Made by a program: the position numbers and the translations under genes. Positions 5,510-47,503 of a stretch of 64,000 nt of DNA are shown here, piece after piece. The notes under the pieces are model-generated. The model searched no databases and was not told the DNA's origin. It saw only the letters and a program-made list of their open reading frames with translations. How positions within the stretch are numbered: the stretch's first letter is position 1; each line of letters starts with the position of its first letter. The DNA lies in NCBI RefSeq assembly GCF_030062155.1, contig NZ_CP118267.1:1-64000 (forward strand). Direction: 5' to 3'. The DNA is from Pantoea sp. Lij88. Its GTDB lineage: Bacteria > Pseudomonadota > Gammaproteobacteria > Enterobacterales > Enterobacteriaceae.

Positions 5510-6649
5510 ATGACATTGCCTTTAACTGAACAACTGGTGCAGTGGCGTCGCGAACTGCATCAGCACCCCGAACTTTCGAATCATGAATTTGCTACCACTG
5601 AACGTATTACCCGCTGGCTGGAGCAGGCCGGGATCCGGCTGTTGCCGCTGGGGCTGAAAACCGGCGTAGTGGCAGAAATCGGTCATGGCGAATCGCTGAT
5701 CGCCCTGCGCGCCGACATCGATGCGTTACCGATTGATAAAATCACCGATCGCCCGTGGCGCTCACAGCAGCCGGGCGTGATGCACGCCTGTGGTCACGAC
5801 GTTCACAGTGCCGTGATGCTGGGCGTCGCCCTGCAGCTGAAACAGCAGGAAGCCACGCTGCCGGGCCGGGTGCGGATTCTGTTTCAGCCCGCTGAAGAGA
5901 CCTTTAACGGTGCGCGTCAACTGATTGATGCCGGTGCGCTCGAAGGAGTAAAGGCGATATTTGGCCTTCACAACGCACCCGATTTGCCGCTGGGCACGCT
6001 TCAAAGCCGTGCGGGCGCGTTCTATGCCAACGTCGATCGTTTTGTGATCCGCGTTGAAGGCAAAGGCGCGCACGCGGCGCGACCGCAGGAGGGCATCGAT
6101 TCGATCGTGATTGCCAGCCATATCGTGACCGCCCTGCAGACCCTGCCGAGTCGGGTCTTCAGCTCGCTGGAGACGGTGGTGCTTAGTGTGACGCGCTTCA
6201 CCGCCGGGAACACCTGGAACGTGCTGCCGCAAAGCGTTGAGCTGGAGGGCACCGTCCGCACCCACAACGGTGAGATCCGGGCGCAGATCCCGCATCGCAT
6301 CCGATCGCTGATTCAGGGTATCGCCGCCGGATTTGGCGCGACCGCTGAACTGGAGTGGACCGAGGGGCCGCCCGCCCTGATTAATACGCCAGGGTGGGTA
6401 GATGTGGCGCTGGAGGTTGCCCGACAGAGTGGCTACCTGGCGGAGCATGCTGCGTCACCGCAGATGGGTGGAGAAGATTTTGCCTTCTATCTGCAACAGG
6501 TGCCGGGCACGTTTGTCAGCATCGGCAGTGCCAGTGAATTTGGCCTGCATCATGCCGCCTTCGATCCGGATGAAGCGCTGATCGGCCCGGCGGTAGCGTA
6601 CTTCACGCAGCTGGTGCCGCGCGCGCTGCAGATTGTGGCGGCGCAATGA
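5510..6649 (+). CDS. M20-family amidohydrolase
   Basis: Zinc-dependent aminoacylase/carboxypeptidase of the M20D type, which hydrolyses N-acyl amino acids or related amides (hippurate hydrolase and IAA-amino-acid hydrolase relatives). Length is 379 residues. Metal ligands are seen in HACGHDVH (about residues 92-99), EETFNGA (catalytic Glu pair) and the dimerisation-domain motif GKGAHAARPQ; the late metal ligand is in GGEDFAFY. Start ATG 5510 follows a short spacer after the CMD gene. Being in the importer operon suggests that the transported compound is deacylated in the cytoplasm. Confidence 0.9.
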   Translation: MTLPLTEQLVQWRRELHQHPELSNHEFATTERITRWLEQAGIRLLPLGLKTGVVAEIGHGESLIALRADIDALPIDKITDRPWRSQQPGVMHACGHDVHSAVMLGVALQLKQQEATLPGRVRILFQPAEETFNGARQLIDAGALEGVKAIFGLHNAPDLPLGTLQSRAGAFYANVDRFVIRVEGKGAHAARPQEGIDSIVIASHIVTALQTLPSRVFSSLETVVLSVTRFTAGNTWNVLPQSVELEGTVRTHNGEIRAQIPHRIRSLIQGIAAGFGATAELEWTEGPPALINTPGWVDVALEVARQSGYLAEHAASPQMGGEDFAFYLQQVPGTFVSIGSASEFGLHHAAFDPDEALIGPAVAYFTQLVPRALQIVAAQ

Positions 6650-39733: not shown

Positions 39734-40603
39734 CTACGGGGTCATTATTTGCTGACTAATCCATTCGCGGAATATGTGCATCGAATGGGTCATTTTTCTG
39801 GCTCTCTGCCACGTTAACCAGTACCCATCCTGACCGGCGTAAATATCAAAAGGTCTGGCGAGCAAGCCTTGTTTTATTTCCGGTTGAAACATGACATCCG
39901 GAGCCAGTGCTACGCCACCGGTAATCATGACGGCATCAATAATAAGGCGTGAAGAATCGAAAACAGGTCCATTAATTCTGAACGGAGGGATACCTGCTGC
40001 AGCAAACCAGTTATCCCACTCTTCAATACGATAAGAACGTAATAAAGTCTCGCCAGAAATATCGCCAGGTTTGAGTAGTCTCTTTGCGGTCTCAGGCCGA
40101 CACAACAGGGTAAGCGGCGCATCCAGAAGAAGTGCGTTATGCGATGAAGTCCAGTTGCCAGAACCGTATCTTATAGCAAAATCGACACCCTCTCCGGCAA
40201 GGCTTACAACGTTATTATTTGTCTGGATACTCAGTTCGATAGCAGGGTGTCTCTGCTGGAAGTCTTCAATTTTCGGTAAAAGCCAGCCCAGCGCAAACGT
40301 GCCTACACAGGAAATCGACAGTGCTTCCCTGACCTTTCCTCCTTCGAACTGACGGTACGCCTTTTCAATACGATGAAATTCTTCAGAAATTTTTGAGAAA
40401 AGTAGCCGGGCCTCGTCGGTCAGCTCAAGGCCCCGGGGAAGCCTTTTGAACAAAACCACCCCTAATCGTTCTTCAAGCAGCCTGACCTGCTGACTGACCG
40501 CCGCCTGAGAGACGAAAAGCTCCATGCCAGCCCTCGTGAAATTGAGGTGGCGGGCAGAAGCCTCAAAAGCTCGCAGCGCATTGAGCGGGATATCACTTTT
40601 CAC
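39734..40603 (-). CDS. ampR: AmpR-like LysR regulator of the beta-lactamase
   Basis: A 289-residue LysR-type activator/repressor of the AmpR/CumR/NmcR kind: start LNALRAFEASARHLNFTRAG, LFVSQAAVSQQVRLLEERLGVVLFKRLPRGLELT, and the effector domain with SCVGTFALGWLLPKI. AmpR proteins respond to cell-wall muropeptides and induce an adjacent beta-lactamase. It is divergent from the class A gene with a 164-bp shared promoter region, the classic arrangement, so inducible expression is expected. Confidence 0.88.
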   Translation of the reverse strand: MKSDIPLNALRAFEASARHLNFTRAGMELFVSQAAVSQQVRLLEERLGVVLFKRLPRGLELTDEARLLFSKISEEFHRIEKAYRQFEGGKVREALSISCVGTFALGWLLPKIEDFQQRHPAIELSIQTNNNVVSLAGEGVDFAIRYGSGNWTSSHNALLLDAPLTLLCRPETAKRLLKPGDISGETLLRSYRIEEWDNWFAAAGIPPFRINGPVFDSSRLIIDAVMITGGVALAPDVMFQPEIKQGLLARPFDIYAGQDGYWLTWQRARKMTHSMHIFREWISQQIMTP

Positions 40604-40767
40604 ATCAGACCCCAGAAATTCTTATGACTGTCATCAATTTATACCGTTTTTTCTTAAAGCGAAATTCATTTATTTTGGAGCACGTAATTTAAGGGGTGCG
40701 AAGTTATTCCCGCGAATTTTAATTTACCCCCATGATGTTTTTTTATTTCAGAATAAGGTGGTTCATG

Positions 40768-41646
40768 ATGATAAATTTTAAAGCAAGCCTGACCAGTATG
40801 TTACTGCTCGCCGCAACAGGTTGTTCATTATCAGCCTATGCTGCTTTTGACCAGCAGACGTTAAAAAGCCAGTTTGAGACACTGGAAAATAAATCAGGTG
40901 GACGACTCGGCGTAACGGTCATTGACACCTCCGATGGTTCAACATATTCATGGCGTGGCAATGAAAGATTCCCACTGTGCAGTACAAGTAAAGTAATGGC
41001 GGTTGCAGCGATATTAAAGAAAAATGAAAGTGATCCTGCTTTGCTTGATAAAAAAATTCATATAAACAAAAGTGACATGGTTAATTACAACCCCATCACC
41101 CAGAAGCATATCGGCTCATCCATGACCGTTGCTGAGTTGAGTGCTGCGGCGCTGCAATACAGTGACAACGCCGCGATGAATAAATTACTCGCCTATCTGG
41201 GTGGCCCGCAGCAGGCAACCCAATTTGCCCGAACAGCAGGCGATAAGGCTTTCCGTCTGGACAGAAAAGAACCGGAGCTTAATACGGCCATGCCGGGTGA
41301 TGCGCGTGATACCACGACCCCTTTAGCGATGGCTGACACGCTTCGCAAACTTGTTCTGGGATCCGCTCTTAAAGAAGAGCAGCGAACCCGGCTGTCAGAA
41401 TGGATGAAGGGCAATACTACAGGTGTAAACAGTATTAAAGCGGGCCTGCCGGCTGACTGGATAGTGGCAGATAAAACAGGCAGTGGTGACTATGGCACAA
41501 CGAATGACATTGCCGTCATCTGGCCAAAGCATCACGCCCCCATCGTTCTCACAACTTACTTCACCCAACCTGTTAAAGACGCAACCGCGCGCAAAGATGT
41601 TCTGGCCAGCGCGGCAAAACTGGTCACAGATGCCATCAGTAAATAA
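40768..41646 (+). CDS. Class A beta-lactamase, CTX-M/FONA/SFO-like
   Basis: Periplasmic serine beta-lactamase of 292 residues with an N-terminal signal peptide (about 1-26). All catalytic motifs are present: CSTSK (nucleophile Ser72, Lys75), SDN (133-135), omega-loop EPELN (general base Glu169) and KTGSGDYG (near 236). The Cys before the nucleophile, RDTTTP and the KTGS motif with Ser place it near CTX-M, KLUC, SFO and FONA enzymes, which hydrolyse penicillins and many cephalosporins; the exact spectrum cannot be read from sequence. Second ATG 40768 has the better spacing from AAGGTG. Followed by a strong terminator. Confidence 0.92.
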
Positions 41647-41822: not shown

Positions 41823-42221
41823 TTAGCGATTAAATCTTTCAATCGCGCTGTCAGTGACAGGCGTAAACAGTGACACGAGCGTGCCTTCCGGGTCGCGAAA
41901 TTGCAGTGTCCGGTTTCCCCAGGGCATGACCTTGGGTTCGTGAACAAATTCAATACCCTGCACTCGTAACCTGTTGAAATGATGGTCTACATCGGTAACG
42001 TAAAATTCGATTATGGCGGTTTCATTAGAGGCCGCCTTTGCACATCCCGCCCTGAAAAGCGGGACGGTCTCTTCGCTTCCAATAGCGATTGCAGCACCTG
42101 GCATGACAATCTCAGCAAAAACAGGGGCAAGCCACTGGGCGCGGCATTCAGTGATAAATTCGTAGAATTCAACGACCCTGGCCATGTCTTTTACAATCAG
42201 TCTTACTGAAGCTAATTTCAT
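41823..42221 (-). CDS. VOC-family protein (glyoxalase/dioxygenase superfamily)
   Basis: A 132-residue single-domain VOC protein. Opening strand KLASVRLIVKDMARVVEFYEF, second module IEFYVTDVDHHFNRLRVQGI, and metal-ligand pattern ending TLQFRDPEGTLVSLFTPV. Relatives include fosfomycin- and bleomycin-resistance-like proteins and glyoxalases; none can be assigned. Divergent from the WYL-type regulator, which probably controls it. Confidence 0.85.
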   Translation of the reverse strand: MKLASVRLIVKDMARVVEFYEFITECRAQWLAPVFAEIVMPGAAIAIGSEETVPLFRAGCAKAASNETAIIEFYVTDVDHHFNRLRVQGIEFVHEPKVMPWGNRTLQFRDPEGTLVSLFTPVTDSAIERFNR

Positions 42222-42308
42222 TGCTTACTCTCCGAACGATGGCATAAATGATGTCAGTAGCTATCATCGTTCAACCCTACTGACACCGTTATGGCAACAG
42301 GAAAAAAA

Positions 42309-43010
42309 ATGAGGCGCGCAGACAGACTTTTCCAGATAATTCAGATACTTCGCAGAAATCACTTTCCCGTTACAGCGGCTAAGTTAGCAGAGGAGCTTGA
42401 GGTATCTAAGCGTACTGTCTACAGAGATATGGCGGATTTGGCTGGGCAACGCATTCCTGTGGCGGGAGAGGCGGGAACAGGCTATGTGCTGAGTTCAGAT
42501 TATGATATGCCACCCTTGATGTTTACTGCGGAAGAGCTTGAGGCTGTCTTTTTAGGCATTGAACTCGTTAAACAACTGCCTGATGCCACCCTTGCTCATA
42601 ATGCGAATGATGTATTAGCTAAAATCACATCGGTCATTCCGAAAAAACTTATGGATTTACTGACTGAGTCAACGGTTGCTATTAAACCTGATAACCGGGA
42701 AATCAGTAAATCTGACACACGTGAAATCCGCGCGGCAATACGCAATGAACGTAAAATTTTTATAAAATATCGCGCTGCAGATGGAAATATTTCTGAAAGA
42801 GTTATCTGGCCCATCGTCCTCGGATACGACTTTTCACATAGCTTGCTTATAGCCTGGTGCGAAAATAAGAAGGATTTCAGGCATTTCCGTATAAGCCAAA
42901 TAGTGAAAATTATTGTCATGAATGACAGCATCCGCACAGACAGGAAAAGCCTGAAACTTCAATGGCAAAGATGGCGATCCACCCAGACCTCACAGCCCGA
43001 CATCCTGTAG
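42309..43010 (+). CDS. HTH/WYL-domain regulator (YafY/DeoR-like)
   Basis: A 233-residue regulator. The N-terminal HTH_11 (RRADRLFQIIQILRRNHFPV, then EELEVSKRTVYRDMADL) precedes a WYL effector-binding domain at about 135-215 (IFIKYRAADGN, RVIWPIVLGY, FRHFRISQIVKI). The WYL-site residues are partly divergent. I chose ATG 42309 because AGGA lies 6 bases upstream; ATG 42291 is an alternative. Divergent from the VOC gene. Confidence 0.87.
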   Translation: MRRADRLFQIIQILRRNHFPVTAAKLAEELEVSKRTVYRDMADLAGQRIPVAGEAGTGYVLSSDYDMPPLMFTAEELEAVFLGIELVKQLPDATLAHNANDVLAKITSVIPKKLMDLLTESTVAIKPDNREISKSDTREIRAAIRNERKIFIKYRAADGNISERVIWPIVLGYDFSHSLLIAWCENKKDFRHFRISQIVKIIVMNDSIRTDRKSLKLQWQRWRSTQTSQPDIL

Positions 43011-43160
43011 AAAACCGATTTAACGTCTGACGCTTTCAATATTAATTGTCTTAAATTTAAGCGGAAAAATAGTTTAACAGGAAGTGGCTTTCACACCGGG
43101 AAATGAAAAAAACCACCCCTGTCTATGTTGAGGAATTTCTGATGCTTATTTAATGCCCTT

Positions 43161-43721
43161 TTATTCAGAAATAATTCCACTCAATATCAGTTCAAGACCT
43201 CGTTCATACATATGTTCTTTATCGGCTATAAAGAACTGACTACGCCTGTTCAATTCCGTCAGCGAGCCTTCCTGTTGTTCTTCAAGGACAAAACCAACCG
43301 TGAATTTTGATGCTGTCATCAACGCGAGTTTCGCATCATTTTCATCGATCCCCTGCCCCACCAGAAAGCTTATCTTCTGTTCAAGCCGTCCGCTGTCGTC
43401 ACCAGGCACATGAAAAGCATGGAGGCGGGCACCATCACGGTAGAGAAGCAAAGTATGACGAAATGACTTCAGATTGTTTATAAGCCATGTTTTTACGTCC
43501 TGACCCTCTTCAGGCAAGGGAAAATTCCAGTGAGTTTGCATGGCGGCTTCGGCCATGGCTTGCAGTAGCCTGTCTTTATTTTTGAAATGCCAGTACAGAG
43601 CCGGCTGCTCTACGCCCAGCTGCTTCGCAATTTTTCTCGTACTGATGCCATCAATTCCTGCTTCATTCAGCAACATCAATGCTTCCGTAACGATTTGGTC
43701 AGCGCTCAAAATTTTTTTCAT
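43161..43721 (-). CDS. Tet-repressor homologue (TetR class proper)
   Basis: A 186-residue protein close to the tetracycline repressors, not merely the broad TetR family: LLNEAGIDGISTRKIAKQLGVEQPALYWHFKNK matches the Tn10 TetR DNA-binding domain nearly residue for residue as I recall it. The effector domain keeps the equivalents of Asn82, Phe86, the Mg2+ ligand His100, Pro105 and Glu147. The positions of His64 (Trp), Thr103 (His), Arg104 (Val) and His139 (Lys) differ. DNA recognition should thus be tetO-like, while the ligand may not be tetracycline. Divergent from a flavin monooxygenase across two tetO-like operators. Confidence 0.88.
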   Translation of the reverse strand: MKKILSADQIVTEALMLLNEAGIDGISTRKIAKQLGVEQPALYWHFKNKDRLLQAMAEAAMQTHWNFPLPEEGQDVKTWLINNLKSFRHTLLLYRDGARLHAFHVPGDDSGRLEQKISFLVGQGIDENDAKLALMTASKFTVGFVLEEQQEGSLTELNRRSQFFIADKEHMYERGLELILSGIISE

Positions 43722-43732
43722 AGATCTCCCAG

Positions 43733-43747
43733 CTTATCAGTGATAAG
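43733..43747. promoter_or_regulatory. tetO-like operator 1
   Basis: CTTATCAGTGATAAG, a perfect palindrome around a central base. The core TATCAGTGATA is the same as in tet operator O2 of Tn10; only the next pair outward differs (T/A instead of C/G). It lies 12 bp from the repressor start codon. Confidence 0.85.
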
Positions 43748-43754
43748 TTCTAAT

Positions 43755-43767
43755 TTATCAGTGATAA
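43755..43767. promoter_or_regulatory. tetO-like operator 2
   Basis: TTATCAGTGATAA, a second copy of the same palindrome. The centres are 21 bp apart (43740 and 43761), two helical turns, so two dimers would sit on the same face of the DNA. Confidence 0.85.
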
Positions 43768-43811
43768 GCTTACCATGTTTTGTTATCCCGGACTCAAAAA
43801 CGGAGGGTATT

Positions 43812-45287
43812 ATGTCAAATGAGCATCTGAATGAAACAGGGGTTTTAATCACTGGAGGGGGCATTGTGGGACTTTCTGCGGCCCTCTTTCTGCACCAGAA
43901 CAATGTGCCATTCATCCTGATTGAAAAAAATCCAACGCTGTCGATGCTGCCTCGTGCGAGAGGGTTTTCAGCCAGGACGATGGAGTTGTATCGCAGTGTG
44001 GGACTGCAGCAAGCCATCGAAAAACAGGCACTGAAGGCATGGAAGCAAGGCACATTTGGGGGAGCAAGGAGCGGCAAATCAATGCTGGATTCACTGTCGC
44101 TCAGTGAAGCTGACGTTCAGCGCTTACACTCTGAAGCGGATCCGTCACCCTGCATGTTAACCGCCTGTCCTCAGACGCTGATTGAGCCAGTGCTCTATGA
44201 AGCGTTGCTGGACAGAGAACAAAATATACATTTTGGCTGGGAACTCATCGAAATTAGCCAGCATAAGAGCGGAGTCACCGCCAGAGTCAGGGATTCTGAG
44301 GGGGCATTGCATCAAATCAATGCCAGCTTTCTGTTTGCCGCAGACGGCGCGCGAAGTTCAATCCGAAGCGCATCAGGTATTCAGCGAAAAGGTATTGAAG
44401 CCAGCAGACACTACCTGAACATTTTTTTTGAAGCAGACCTGACTGATGATGTATGCGGTAAAACATTCAGCCAGTGCGAAGTAAGCAATGACACTGTTAA
44501 GGGTCTGTTCCTGTCGATGAATAATACGACGCGCTGGTCTTTTCATCTGGATTATGATCCTGATAAATGTCATCCGGAACAATGGGATGACAACGCACTG
44601 ATATCCGCTCTGCGCAGCGCTATCGGTAAAGATTGTGAAATTAAAGTATTAGCTCGCTCCCCCTGGAATACGCGTGTCAAAGTGGCTAATGTCTACCGCA
44701 GAGATCGAATTTTTCTGATGGGAGACGCAGCGCATGTCATGCCACCCTGGGGGGGATTTAACGCCAATACGGGCATTGCCGATGCCCATAACCTGTGCTG
44801 GAAAATCGCGCATGTTTTAGCAGGGAAAGATGATGAATCCCTGCTTGAGACCTATGAAACGGAAAGGCTGCCGGTGGCGGAAAGAAACGGCAAACAGGCC
44901 TGGCTCAGAACGGATTTTGATGCGCGTTTCCAGATAAAATCCCCGGGCAACGCCGGTTATTTCAATGACATTATTGATTGTAATGAACTTCACATGCGTT
45001 ATGAGTATGCCCGAAACAGGACAGTTGAAAAATTACTCTGTCAGCCAGGCACCAGATTTCCGCATCTGTGGGTTATTTACTGCGGTAAAACTATTTCCAC
45101 TCTCGATTTATTCGACACTGAGTACGTCAGATTAGGTGGACCAGACTCTTATGCTCTCGGTCAGGAGTGCTTTTACAGATTTGGTCATGAGTTATTCCCG
45201 TGTGAAGAATCATCATCATGGCGTTCGCTGACAGGCTTAGCTGATAATCAAACTATTCTGGTCAGACCCGACGGCTTTATAGTCTGA
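43812..45287 (+). CDS. FAD-dependent aromatic-type monooxygenase
   Basis: A 491-residue class A flavin monooxygenase (FAD_binding_3). Dinucleotide-binding GGGIVGLSAALFL is at about 14-26, the DG motif FAADGARSSIRS at about 175, and the GD motif FLMGDAAHVMPPWGGFNANTGIADAHNLCWKIAHVL at about 300. Relatives hydroxylate phenols, aromatic polyketides or rifamycins. The real start is ATG 43812 with GGAGG upstream; the frame stays open upstream across the operators. The chain stops at RPDGFIV, where relatives continue with a Trp-Arg and a short tail. Controlled by the divergent Tet-repressor homologue. Confidence 0.85.
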   Translation: MSNEHLNETGVLITGGGIVGLSAALFLHQNNVPFILIEKNPTLSMLPRARGFSARTMELYRSVGLQQAIEKQALKAWKQGTFGGARSGKSMLDSLSLSEADVQRLHSEADPSPCMLTACPQTLIEPVLYEALLDREQNIHFGWELIEISQHKSGVTARVRDSEGALHQINASFLFAADGARSSIRSASGIQRKGIEASRHYLNIFFEADLTDDVCGKTFSQCEVSNDTVKGLFLSMNNTTRWSFHLDYDPDKCHPEQWDDNALISALRSAIGKDCEIKVLARSPWNTRVKVANVYRRDRIFLMGDAAHVMPPWGGFNANTGIADAHNLCWKIAHVLAGKDDESLLETYETERLPVAERNGKQAWLRTDFDARFQIKSPGNAGYFNDIIDCNELHMRYEYARNRTVEKLLCQPGTRFPHLWVIYCGKTISTLDLFDTEYVRLGGPDSYALGQECFYRFGHELFPCEESSSWRSLTGLADNQTILVRPDGFIV

Positions 45288-45411
45288 AGACCAAAAGATT
45301 TCCGGCCAGGATACTCCCCTTTTTGCTTCGGCAGCAGAGATAAGCACTGAAAGTGTCTTATAAATTAATGCGGTTGCGTATTTCCTGAATAAATGATCAA
45401 TCCAGGAACAA

Positions 45412-45744
45412 ATGTCTATGAAGCTTATTCAGAATTCAGGATTACTTAAATTAGAGAAGACGATAGTGGGGGTTTTCTCCGCCTGGTTTACTCTCTACTC
45501 TGCTGCCGCGCTTGAAACGCGTAGTGATCCACACGTTCATAATATCGATATTTATCGTAGCAAAACACGATGCCCGCAAAGGATCGCAAACGGTCTGAGC
45601 CCTGCAAGGCTTACATTGCATAATTTGTACAGTGGGGAAGATGAAAAAGGGAAACTCAACCCAGAATGGAGATGTCCCGGTTGCCAGGTATCTTTATGGC
45701 AGGAGGATTGTCATATTCTCAGGCCCGCATCCGGAAGCGGATGA
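45412..45744 (+). CDS. Possible small protein, uncertain
   Basis: An open frame of 110 codons (45412 or ATG 45418) with a hydrophobic segment (TIVGVFSAWFTLYSAAAL) and a C-terminal CPGC-x8-C pattern. Nothing recognisable and no good ribosome site. It may be non-coding or a remnant. The 45288-45891 stretch otherwise holds nothing I can identify. Confidence 0.3.
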   Translation: MSMKLIQNSGLLKLEKTIVGVFSAWFTLYSAAALETRSDPHVHNIDIYRSKTRCPQRIANGLSPARLTLHNLYSGEDEKGKLNPEWRCPGCQVSLWQEDCHILRPASGSG

Positions 45745-45891: not shown

Positions 45892-46971
45892 CTACTCTTT
45901 TTCGCAGAACCAGTCCTGAAAACCGGATAGTGCGGCAGGCATTATGTCGCGGGCGCGTTCCATGATGAGGGTTTCCGCATAGCGTAAACCGTTTAGCGGG
46001 TGCGACGCCTCGCATAAAGCCAGTGCCATGTCAGAAGCATCAAGCATTGCCAGGTTAACGCCTGTGCCAACAGGTGGCATCAGGTGAGCCGCATCTCCGA
46101 TTAACGTAATGCCCGGACGCGGCACCCAGCAAAAATCCACGGGCAGGCTATAGATCGGACGCCTGACATAGTCGCCGGTCGCGTTGATGACTGCCTGCAG
46201 GGAAGAATCCCAGCCGTTGTAACTGTTGCGCACATAGGCGGTTATGTCCTGCCGCAGGACAATCTGATCGATCATATCAGCATCACGCTTCATGGCCGCA
46301 TAAACGCAAATCCGTCCTCCTCCATTACGTTGTGTCACCAGCGCCTCCGTGCCGCCAAAGCTGAAAGCCGTTCCTTTTCCTGCAATGCGATTGATATGGC
46401 CGGAGGGTTCATTTATCCAGCCCTCAAAGAACGTTATGCCGGTATAACGTGGGCGTTCCGGCGTCAGATAAGATCTGACCCGCGACCAGGCCCCATCGGC
46501 ACCAATGACAATGTCCGCTTCATAGCGCCTGCCGTTTCTGAACATCAGCCCATGATTTTTTTCCAGGCCGTAGTCCACATAATGAAGCTTATGACCCCAT
46601 TGGAGGGTTTCTGGGGTGAGTGCGTTTCGTAGAAGCGTTTTTAGCTCGCCGCGGTCAATTTCAGGTTTATCCATTTCACCTTCCGGCCCAGGCATGTCGC
46701 CCTCGATTTCTCCGGTACGGTAGTTCAGCATCCGGCTTTTCTGATCCTCATGCCTCGCTACATTTCTGAACTGCTGGAGAAGTCCCGCCCGGCGCAGCGC
46801 CTCCTGCCCGCTGTCAGCATGCAAATCCAGTGATCCACCCTGACTCCGCTCAGAATCGCCAGACTCTTCATCAAACAGAGTGACGTCAAAGCCATTTCTC
46901 TGAAGTATGACTGCCGCAGTGAGGCCTGCAGGGCCTCCGCCAACGATGGCAATAGTGAGTCTGTCCGACAT
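45892..46971 (-). CDS. Tet(X)-like FAD-dependent monooxygenase
   Basis: A 359-residue flavoprotein. FAD motif AIVGGGPAGLTAAVILQ is at the N-terminus. The segments GGSLDLHADSGQEALRRAGLLQ and KPEIDRGELKTLLRNAL run parallel to the Tet(X) tetracycline-inactivating enzymes as I remember them. The DG motif is VIGADGAWSRVRSYL and the GD motif is GDAAHLMPPVGTGVNLAMLDA, where Tet(X) has PPFAGQG. Whether it accepts tetracyclines is unknown. I chose ATG 46971 with GAGAG upstream. Divergent from a MarR gene across a small palindrome. Confidence 0.85.
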   Translation of the reverse strand: MSDRLTIAIVGGGPAGLTAAVILQRNGFDVTLFDEESGDSERSQGGSLDLHADSGQEALRRAGLLQQFRNVARHEDQKSRMLNYRTGEIEGDMPGPEGEMDKPEIDRGELKTLLRNALTPETLQWGHKLHYVDYGLEKNHGLMFRNGRRYEADIVIGADGAWSRVRSYLTPERPRYTGITFFEGWINEPSGHINRIAGKGTAFSFGGTEALVTQRNGGGRICVYAAMKRDADMIDQIVLRQDITAYVRNSYNGWDSSLQAVINATGDYVRRPIYSLPVDFCWVPRPGITLIGDAAHLMPPVGTGVNLAMLDASDMALALCEASHPLNGLRYAETLIMERARDIMPAALSGFQDWFCEKE

Positions 46972-47047: not shown

Positions 47048-47503
47048 ATGCATACCACGGAAATTTCAGACGAAGAGTGGCTGGCATGGCGTGGATACCG
47101 CCGGCTGGCCGCACTTATCACGGGGCGGATCGCCAGGGATATCAGTGAAGCCACCGGACTGTCCGATCAGGATTTCATGATCCTGATGGAGCTGAGCAAG
47201 AGTCCGCATGCAGAACTGCTTCAGCGTGAACTGCAGGAATATATCGAATGGGATAAGTCGCGGCTTTCACATCAGCTTTCACGTATGTCATCACGGGGGC
47301 TTGTGCAGCGAAACCGCAAAAGTTCGTCAGGTATTTCGGTAGGCATTACTGACGCAGGTCGCCTGCTCCTCGACAAAGCCCGACCGGTGCATGCTGCAAG
47401 CGTGCGACGACATTTTCTCGACTTACTCACGCCGGATGACCTCCCTGAACTGATCGCTATCAACGAGCGATTGCGACAGTCAGGGGGGAATTTTAAAGCG
47501 TGA
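47048..47503 (+). CDS. MarR-family transcriptional regulator
   Basis: A 151-residue winged-helix regulator. The DNA-binding part is at about 55-105 (LLQRELQEYIEWDKSRLSHQLSRM then SRGLVQR) with the wing following. It is divergent from the Tet(X)-like monooxygenase and probably represses it in response to a small molecule. Confidence 0.9.
   Translation: MHTTEISDEEWLAWRGYRRLAALITGRIARDISEATGLSDQDFMILMELSKSPHAELLQRELQEYIEWDKSRLSHQLSRMSSRGLVQRNRKSSSGISVGITDAGRLLLDKARPVHAASVRRHFLDLLTPDDLPELIAINERLRQSGGNFKA

Follow-up and report, generated by a model that had tools for sequence, protein, structure and literature searches.

A Tet-type repressor and two tet operators beside a divergent flavin monooxygenase gene on a putative Pantoea plasmid

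TetR and its operator tetO are among the most used of bacterial switches, and what they are known to do in nature is to control a tetracycline pump. The locus described here lies in the window, by which we mean the whole stretch of 64,000 nucleotides analyzed (positions 1 to 64,000 of contig NZ_CP118267.1 of Pantoea sp. Lij88), and pairs a Tet-type repressor gene with a divergent gene for a flavin adenine dinucleotide (FAD)-dependent monooxygenase. With the tet(A)/tet(B) switch of Tn10 and its relatives, it shares the repressor family, the divergent layout, and an operator 13-mer identical to that of class A. Unlike that switch, it has no divergent TetA but a flavin monooxygenase instead, four of eight tetracycline contacts are changed, the lid of the ligand pocket is short, and the repressor scores below the cut-off of the tetracycline-repressor model NF010319. 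On the enzyme side, the closest described systems are flavin monooxygenases: RdmE, GrhO5, RubL, Tet(56), and Tet(51) act on polycyclic polyketides, RdmE and DnrF (aklavinone hydroxylases) and GrhO5 and RubL are biosynthetic enzymes, and Tet(50), Tet(51), Tet(55), and Tet(56) are type 2 tetracycline destructases. The features of the locus are as follows.

43161..43721, minus strand: Tet-type repressor, 186 residues, with PF00440 and PF02909; 180.6 bits to NF010319; member of the enzyme-linked clade described below.
43722..43811, no strand: divergent intergenic region of 90 bp holding both operators, with GGAGGG shortly 5' of the monooxygenase ATG.
43734..43746, no strand: tet-type operator TTATCAGTGATAA, separated by 12 bp from the start codon of the repressor gene.
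43755..43767, no strand: second tet-type operator TTATCAGTGATAA, 44 bp 5' of the monooxygenase start.
43812..45287, plus strand: FAD-dependent monooxygenase, 491 residues, with PF01494; RdmE/GrhO5/MbnF-like.

The length of the monooxygenase is counted from the ATG at 43812; the list of open reading frames also shows a longer version that begins at an ATG farther upstream.

A preliminary description, made from the sequence alone, had proposed a homolog of the Tet repressor, and database comparison bears this out. Among NCBIfam models, the repressor scores 180.6 bits against NF010319 and 37.5 bits against the next model; it falls short of the NF010319 equivalog cut-off of 265 bits. Both domains of the family are present (TetR_N, PF00440, 54.1 bits; TetR_C_1, PF02909, 47.5 bits). 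In a search of the PDB, the best chain is 3fiw (172.5 bits), followed by TetR(A) (135.3 bits) and further Tet repressors with scores as low as about 120 bits, with engineered Tet repressors (98 to 103 bits), 8oo2 (93 bits), and other TetR-family chains (58 bits or less) ranking lower. A repressor no closer to TetR than to the generic family had been named beforehand as grounds for giving up the preliminary description; this was checked and does not occur. Over aligned columns, the repressor is 44.4% identical to TetR(A), 40.5% identical to TetR(B), and 47.8% identical to a repressor from Embleya. Its recognition-helix stretch, EQPALYWHF, had been called almost that of Tn10 TetR; it is indeed close, but it lies two residues from TetR(B) and one from TetR(A). 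The predicted structure of the repressor alone has a mean predicted local distance difference test score of 43.7, too low for use.

The two operators, claimed to carry an exact tetO core 21 bp apart, are also found as described. TATCAGTGATA occurs twice in the window, at 43735-43745 and 43756-43766, with a spacing of 21 bp; its chance expectation in the window is 0.01, and two copies arose in none of 100 shuffles. With one more base at either end, each site reads TTATCAGTGATAA, the 13-mer of the class A tet operators. TTATCRNYGATAA occurs at exactly two places in the 4.74-Mb genome, which are the two operators, and the shorter TATCANTGATA has five further places, on another contig. A Tn10-type operator was considered and ruled out, since the sites have the outer T:A pair of class A and not the outer C:G pair of Tn10.

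This outer pair follows residue 40 of the repressor. Across 38 loci, repressors with Ala at this position face an outer T:A at 39 of 40 sites, and those with Ser or Thr face C:G at all 26 sites; we read the agreement as a consistency check and not as a statistic, because it rests on about two to three independent changes (two starred pairs) and is not significant when these are treated as independent events. The sole exception is one Burkholderia site, where the recognition helix also differs at residues 38 and 39. A generic TetR-family protein beside look-alike sites was excluded by the score gap together with this agreement between operators and residue 40. On the DNA side, then, comparison of sequences makes a strong case for the lineage of the repressor and for its operators.

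The proposed target, an FAD monooxygenase in place of a TetA pump, was confirmed on the plus strand, ending at 45287. The enzyme matches PF01494 (FAD_binding_3) at 267.4 bits and, weakly, Rng_hyd_C, and its gene looks intact: GGGIVG, DGARS, and GDAAHVMP are all present, which we take to be the GxGxxG, DG, and GD motifs of flavin monooxygenases. Its best NCBIfam models are RdmE (NF046069, 285.3 bits against a cut-off of 700 bits), PRK06126, DnrF, and MbnF; neither the tetracycline destructase model NF033476 nor the Tet(X) model NF033111 is among the best 25 of 56 models. Solved structures place it nearest GrhO5 (246 bits) and RubL (227.8 bits), with RdmE also among the best and TetX2 at about 30 bits, scores that rule out a Tet(X) or type 2 destructase. 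Nearest to RdmE as a model, the enzyme differs from it also in sitting under a tet-type repressor. The biosynthesis-named hydroxylases among these best models and structures (RdmE, DnrF, MbnF, GrhO5) would suit a tailoring enzyme under pathway-specific control. We consider this very improbable, given that no biosynthetic cluster appears among ten neighboring genes or among 21 features around the related module of Pantoea agglomerans described below, the rest of the genome not having been searched.

The arrangement recurs elsewhere. Thirteen more Tet-type repressors, each divergent to an FAD monooxygenase, join that of the window, and in all 14 loci examined that have a repressor in this clade the divergent open reading frame encodes an FAD monooxygenase. 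The 14 loci comprise the window, plasmid pPAG02 of P. agglomerans pv. gypsophilae, Embleya (L135), Frondihabitans, Burkholderia (L128), seven in Streptomyces, and one each in genomes G534 (another class of the same phylum; L136) and G863 (an actinobacterial class; L154). At L164 and L166, the divergent frame is shorter and unannotated (354 and 395 residues) and may be damaged. A tblastn search of plasmids with the Embleya repressor returned 955 records at an E value of 1e-45, of which 17 outrank tetR(A) records (Streptomyces, 14; Embleya, Frondihabitans, and Burkholderia, 1 each); the three single records and 7 of the 14 from Streptomyces supplied loci for the set of 14. In a tree of 31 rows (14 enzyme-linked, 13 pump-linked, 4 outside), the enzyme-linked repressors fall on one side of a branch with support of 100/99, and the same split, with the same support, appears in a tree of 39 rows (14 enzyme-linked, 23 pump-linked, 2 outside), in which the divergent neighbor is TetA-like for each of the 23 pump-linked rows. 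Rows were picked for their resemblance to the repressors of the window and of Embleya, which makes both sides samples; the larger tree leaves out the truncated pump-side repressors L142 and L187 and the duplicates L170, L090, L091, L093, and L094.

The preliminary description had further suggested that the locus might stand near the ancestral setting of tet regulation, and this we could not support. In the best tree rooted with the outgroup, the pump-linked rows do not form one clade, and their monophyly is not rejected (approximately unbiased test, P = 0.268); pump-first and enzyme-first histories therefore both stand, with the pump-linked repressors either a sister clade or the stem. A clade of the window, pPAG02, and Burkholderia, which share one enzyme type, is likewise not rejected (P = 0.115). 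As a whole, the earlier interpretation held for the repressor, the operators, and the enzyme, found no support for the ancestral context, and missed the wider clade with its second enzyme type in 11 of the 14 loci.

Three members of the clade deserve description. The Streptomyces loci (L160-L165 and L167), together with 3fiw, share with the window the clade, the divergent FAD monooxygenase, tet-like operators, His63, Lys116, and mostly a short lid; they differ in their second-type enzyme (about 22% identity), an outer C:G, Ser at residue 40, and a damaged second operator. Each of these seven loci has one complete site and a second with a damaged arm, and the other seven of the 14 have two complete sites. 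The clade has a solved structure, since 3fiw matches repressor L165 of S. coelicoflavus at 389.8 bits and is almost identical to it; 3fiw is presumably SCO0253 of S. coelicolor, and a search of open-licence PubMed Central for that locus name or for 3FIW found no paper. The Burkholderia arboris module on plasmid pla_2 (L128) has a divergent Tet-type repressor, two tet-like sites, and an enzyme of the same type as that of the window, 47% identical to it; its repressor differs in keeping His64, in having Ser38 and Ala39 in the recognition helix, and in its full-length lid, and one of its operators has an outer C:G. Genome G534 carries both an enzyme-linked (L136) and a pump-linked (L137) Tet-type repressor, with outer pairs C:G and T:A, respectively; the two circuits could therefore stay apart.

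The enzyme partners are thus of two types, the first shared by the window, pPAG02, and Burkholderia and the second by the other 11 loci. Second-type enzymes are 64 to 95% identical to each other and about 21 to 26% identical to the first type. In all nine that were scanned, the best model is PRK07588 (217 to 262 bits; cut-off, 454 bits), with the tetracycline destructase model second or third (182 to 220 bits; cut-off, 550 bits). The best solved structures for the Embleya enzyme are the type 2 destructases Tet(56) and Tet(51) (191 to 193 bits). These scores suggest that second-type enzymes are distantly related to the soil tetracycline destructases, from which they differ in fitting PRK07588 better, and from which the window enzyme differs in lying nearer RdmE and GrhO5.

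What the repressors of this clade might sense can be approached through the ligand site, which we number as in TetR(B). The available text of one study lists eight conserved tetracycline contacts (His64, Asn82, Phe86, His100, Thr103, Arg104, Gln116, and Glu147), of which His64, Asn82, and Phe86 are the most important, and describes how helix α9 and the preceding loop close the pocket and how residue 63 can move in to take over the position of His64 (PMC8326586). The window repressor keeps four of the eight, Asn82, Phe86, His100, and Glu147, and has Trp64, His103, Val104, and Lys116 at the others. The preliminary description was right about the four kept residues and about the changes at 64, 103, and 104; it overlooked the change of Gln116 to Lys, and position 139, which it also listed, lies outside the eight contacts and varies among pump-linked repressors (Arg in 11, His in 7, and Tyr in 5 of 23). 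Asn82, Phe86, His100, Glu147, and His63 are each present in all 14 enzyme-linked repressors (His63 in 4 of 23 pump-linked ones), and so is Lys116 (pump-linked, Gln in 17 and Lys in 3 of 23). His64 is found in 1 of 14 enzyme-linked against 21 of 23 pump-linked repressors, and Thr103 has the same counts. The pocket lid, positions 151 to 178, spans 14 residues in the window repressor versus 28 in TetR(B); it has 13 to 15 residues in 11 of the 14 clade members, the exceptions being L128 (27), L135 (24), and L163 (39), and 21 to 36 in the 23 pump-linked repressors. Such a pattern would fit a ligand that chelates metal and departs from tetracycline at the ring A end.

Could a classical tetracycline nonetheless be the inducer, with the enzyme inactivating tetracyclines as a monooxygenase of a new kind? 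We judge this quite unlikely. A Tet-type repressor that retains His100, Glu147, Asn82, and Phe86 speaks for it, as do the sister repressors, most of which adjoin enzymes distantly related to destructases, and the changed site need not exclude tetracyclines, because these stabilized His64Ala, Phe86Ala, and Gln116Ala variants to some extent according to the available text of the study above (PMC8326586). Against it stand the inference in the same text that minocycline fails to bind His64Ala (PMC8326586), the alteration of half the contacts, the near absence of the pocket-closing loop and helix α9, and the far higher score of the enzyme against GrhO5 than against TetX2.

We favor, with moderate confidence, an inducible sense-and-modify switch whose inducer would be a metal-chelated polycyclic polyketide other than a classical tetracycline and whose enzyme would oxygenate that compound or a relative. 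In the gap between the divergent genes, a repressor dimer would occupy both operators and so silence its own gene along with that of the monooxygenase. The inducer, most likely a metal-chelated polycyclic aromatic polyketide, would enter a pocket in which His100 and Glu147 hold the metal and Asn82 and Phe86 complete the site; the repressor would then leave the DNA, and the monooxygenase would be made, oxygenate the inducer or a close relative, and so remove the signal. Regulation of the monooxygenase by the repressor is supported by their 90-bp divergent gap, since divergent TetR-family pairs less than 200 bp apart are most likely regulatory, as stated in the available text of another study (PMC3511530). 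A related polyketide is a plausible putative inducer, as detoxification is a plausible putative role of the enzyme.

Several observations weigh against this switch. In the 90-bp gap, a search for a consensus sigma-70 promoter recognized none. Among the best 25 of 56 NCBIfam models, none is matched by the window enzyme at its cut-off, nor does any of the nine scanned second-type enzymes reach a cut-off; their best model, PRK07588, is a generic FAD-binding one, and for the Embleya enzyme 6-hydroxynicotinate 3-monooxygenase (190.7 bits) follows close behind Tet(56) and Tet(51). At about 21 to 26% identity, a substrate class common to both enzyme types is a guess. Rarity counts here too: in a survey of its own genus at an E value of 1e-15, the repressor was matched in 1 of 61 genomes, so that a benefit from the module would not be general in the genus.

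Wider surveys, which used the repressor or the 14-sequence alignment as the query, draw on overlapping samples and differing thresholds and count the own genome where it was sampled. Among the matches listed, the own order gave seven places in 6 of 295 genomes at 1e-30 or better. The phylum gave 8 of 398 genomes at 1e-15, the actinobacterial class 3 of 394 at 1e-30 and 2 of 345 at 1e-45, the order of G534 10 of 219 at 1e-30, and the order of G1280 (an Oxalobacter genome; L072) 3 of 260 at 1e-30. The enzyme-linked type appeared in G000, G534, and G863 only; the other hits examined adjoin TetA-like pumps, except one in G927 (L156) and a distant one in G534 (L183) that has no match to either reference. 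L156, which has two tet-like sites, is a Tet-type repressor that belongs to neither group; it adjoins a major facilitator superfamily gene that has no match to the TetA references and is perhaps a third kind of target. A scan of genome contigs with the single repressor returned, for the most part, partial matches to TetR-family proteins of actinobacteria. In phages, a search with the repressor alone matched 6 of 50,697 records, the best being a tetR record at 42%. No title or abstract among the matches listed from open-licence PubMed Central describes a module of this kind.

Within Pantoea, the module seems to be an accessory unit gained by horizontal transfer. The window comes from a contig of 634,148 bases, one of three in the genome, and this contig looks like a large plasmid from its matches to plasmid records. 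Of 72,556 plasmid records, 3 match the stretch with the module (43000-45300), and pPAG02 alone does so over most of that stretch; there the arrangement is the same, the repressor is 91.9% and the enzyme 94.3% identical, and one operator is kept while the second reads TTATCGGTGATAA. The 12.7-kb surroundings match 54 plasmid records, all from Pantoea, of which one (pPAG02) covers at least 80%; among the best 25 of the 54, the 24 besides pPAG02 all carry trehalose-6-phosphate synthase and varying other flanking genes. G+C content is 45.3% in the repressor gene, 48.3% in the enzyme gene, and 52.5% in the window, and Escherichia coli genomes gave no match to 43722-45287. A Pantoea dispersa plasmid (L002) has a broken relative of the repressor (5986-6513; 61% identity over residues 21 to 184; annotated coding sequence, 137 residues) next to an ATP-binding cassette transporter, with no monooxygenase in the 12.4 kb fetched around it. 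This remnant is what a decayed, functionless module would look like, and a chance resemblance might be imagined as well; we find either scarcely credible for the window, where the flavin motifs are present and operators are expected by chance at 0.01, and where operators and arrangement are kept in P. agglomerans.

Several other genes lie around the module. A Tet(X)-like flavin monooxygenase (45892-46971, minus strand; NF033111 at 144 bits against a cut-off of 750; PDB 8aq8 at 434 bits) is divergent to a MarR regulator (47048-47503, plus strand), so that another flavin enzyme, paired with a regulator of its own, lies 0.6 kb away from the module. At 39734-41646, a class A beta-lactamase near the CTX-M, SED, and FONA families (419 to 426 bits, below the cut-offs of those families and above the general class A cut-off) is divergent to a PenR-like LysR regulator (408 bits). 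Between them and the repressor, 41823-43010 holds a glyoxalase-fold gene and a WYL-domain regulator, whose place in pPAG02 is taken by an alcohol dehydrogenase and a LysR regulator. A 110-residue open reading frame 3' of the monooxygenase (45412-45744, plus strand) has no Pfam or NCBIfam match.

These neighbors bear on whether the module instead serves catabolism or interaction with plants, its inducer and substrate being plant or fungal aromatics (flavonoids, quinones, or phenolics) and not antibiotics. We hold this to be unlikely, if worth keeping in view. The plasmid relatives come from Pantoea, many of them plant isolates, the fold family of the enzyme is that of aromatic-ring hydroxylases, and the alcohol dehydrogenase and LysR regulator of pPAG02 lie near the module. 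With the beta-lactamase and the Tet(X)-like enzyme nearby, each beside a regulator, the setting looks rather like drug defense; no clear catabolic operon was found in ten neighbors scanned or in the 21 features of pPAG02, and the metal-site residues of TetR are retained in all 14 repressors.

Returning to the sense-and-modify switch, we suggest, more tentatively, that a second natural branch of Tet repressors may serve enzymes and not efflux. Its members would sense polycyclic polyketides other than tetracyclines through an altered, mostly lid-shortened pocket and switch on flavin enzymes that modify these compounds, using the same operator code in Actinomycetota and Pseudomonadota; the enzyme partner would have been swapped at least once between two distantly related types of flavin monooxygenase while the sensor was kept. 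A sister branch beside flavin enzymes opens two questions, namely, what the altered pockets sense and whether tet regulation began with an enzyme or with a pump, and the second branch, if real, would give a handle on that origin. If the inducers prove to be anthracycline-like or other polyketides, the clade would be a source of natural sensors with recognizable operators and of new modifying enzymes in plant-associated and soil bacteria.

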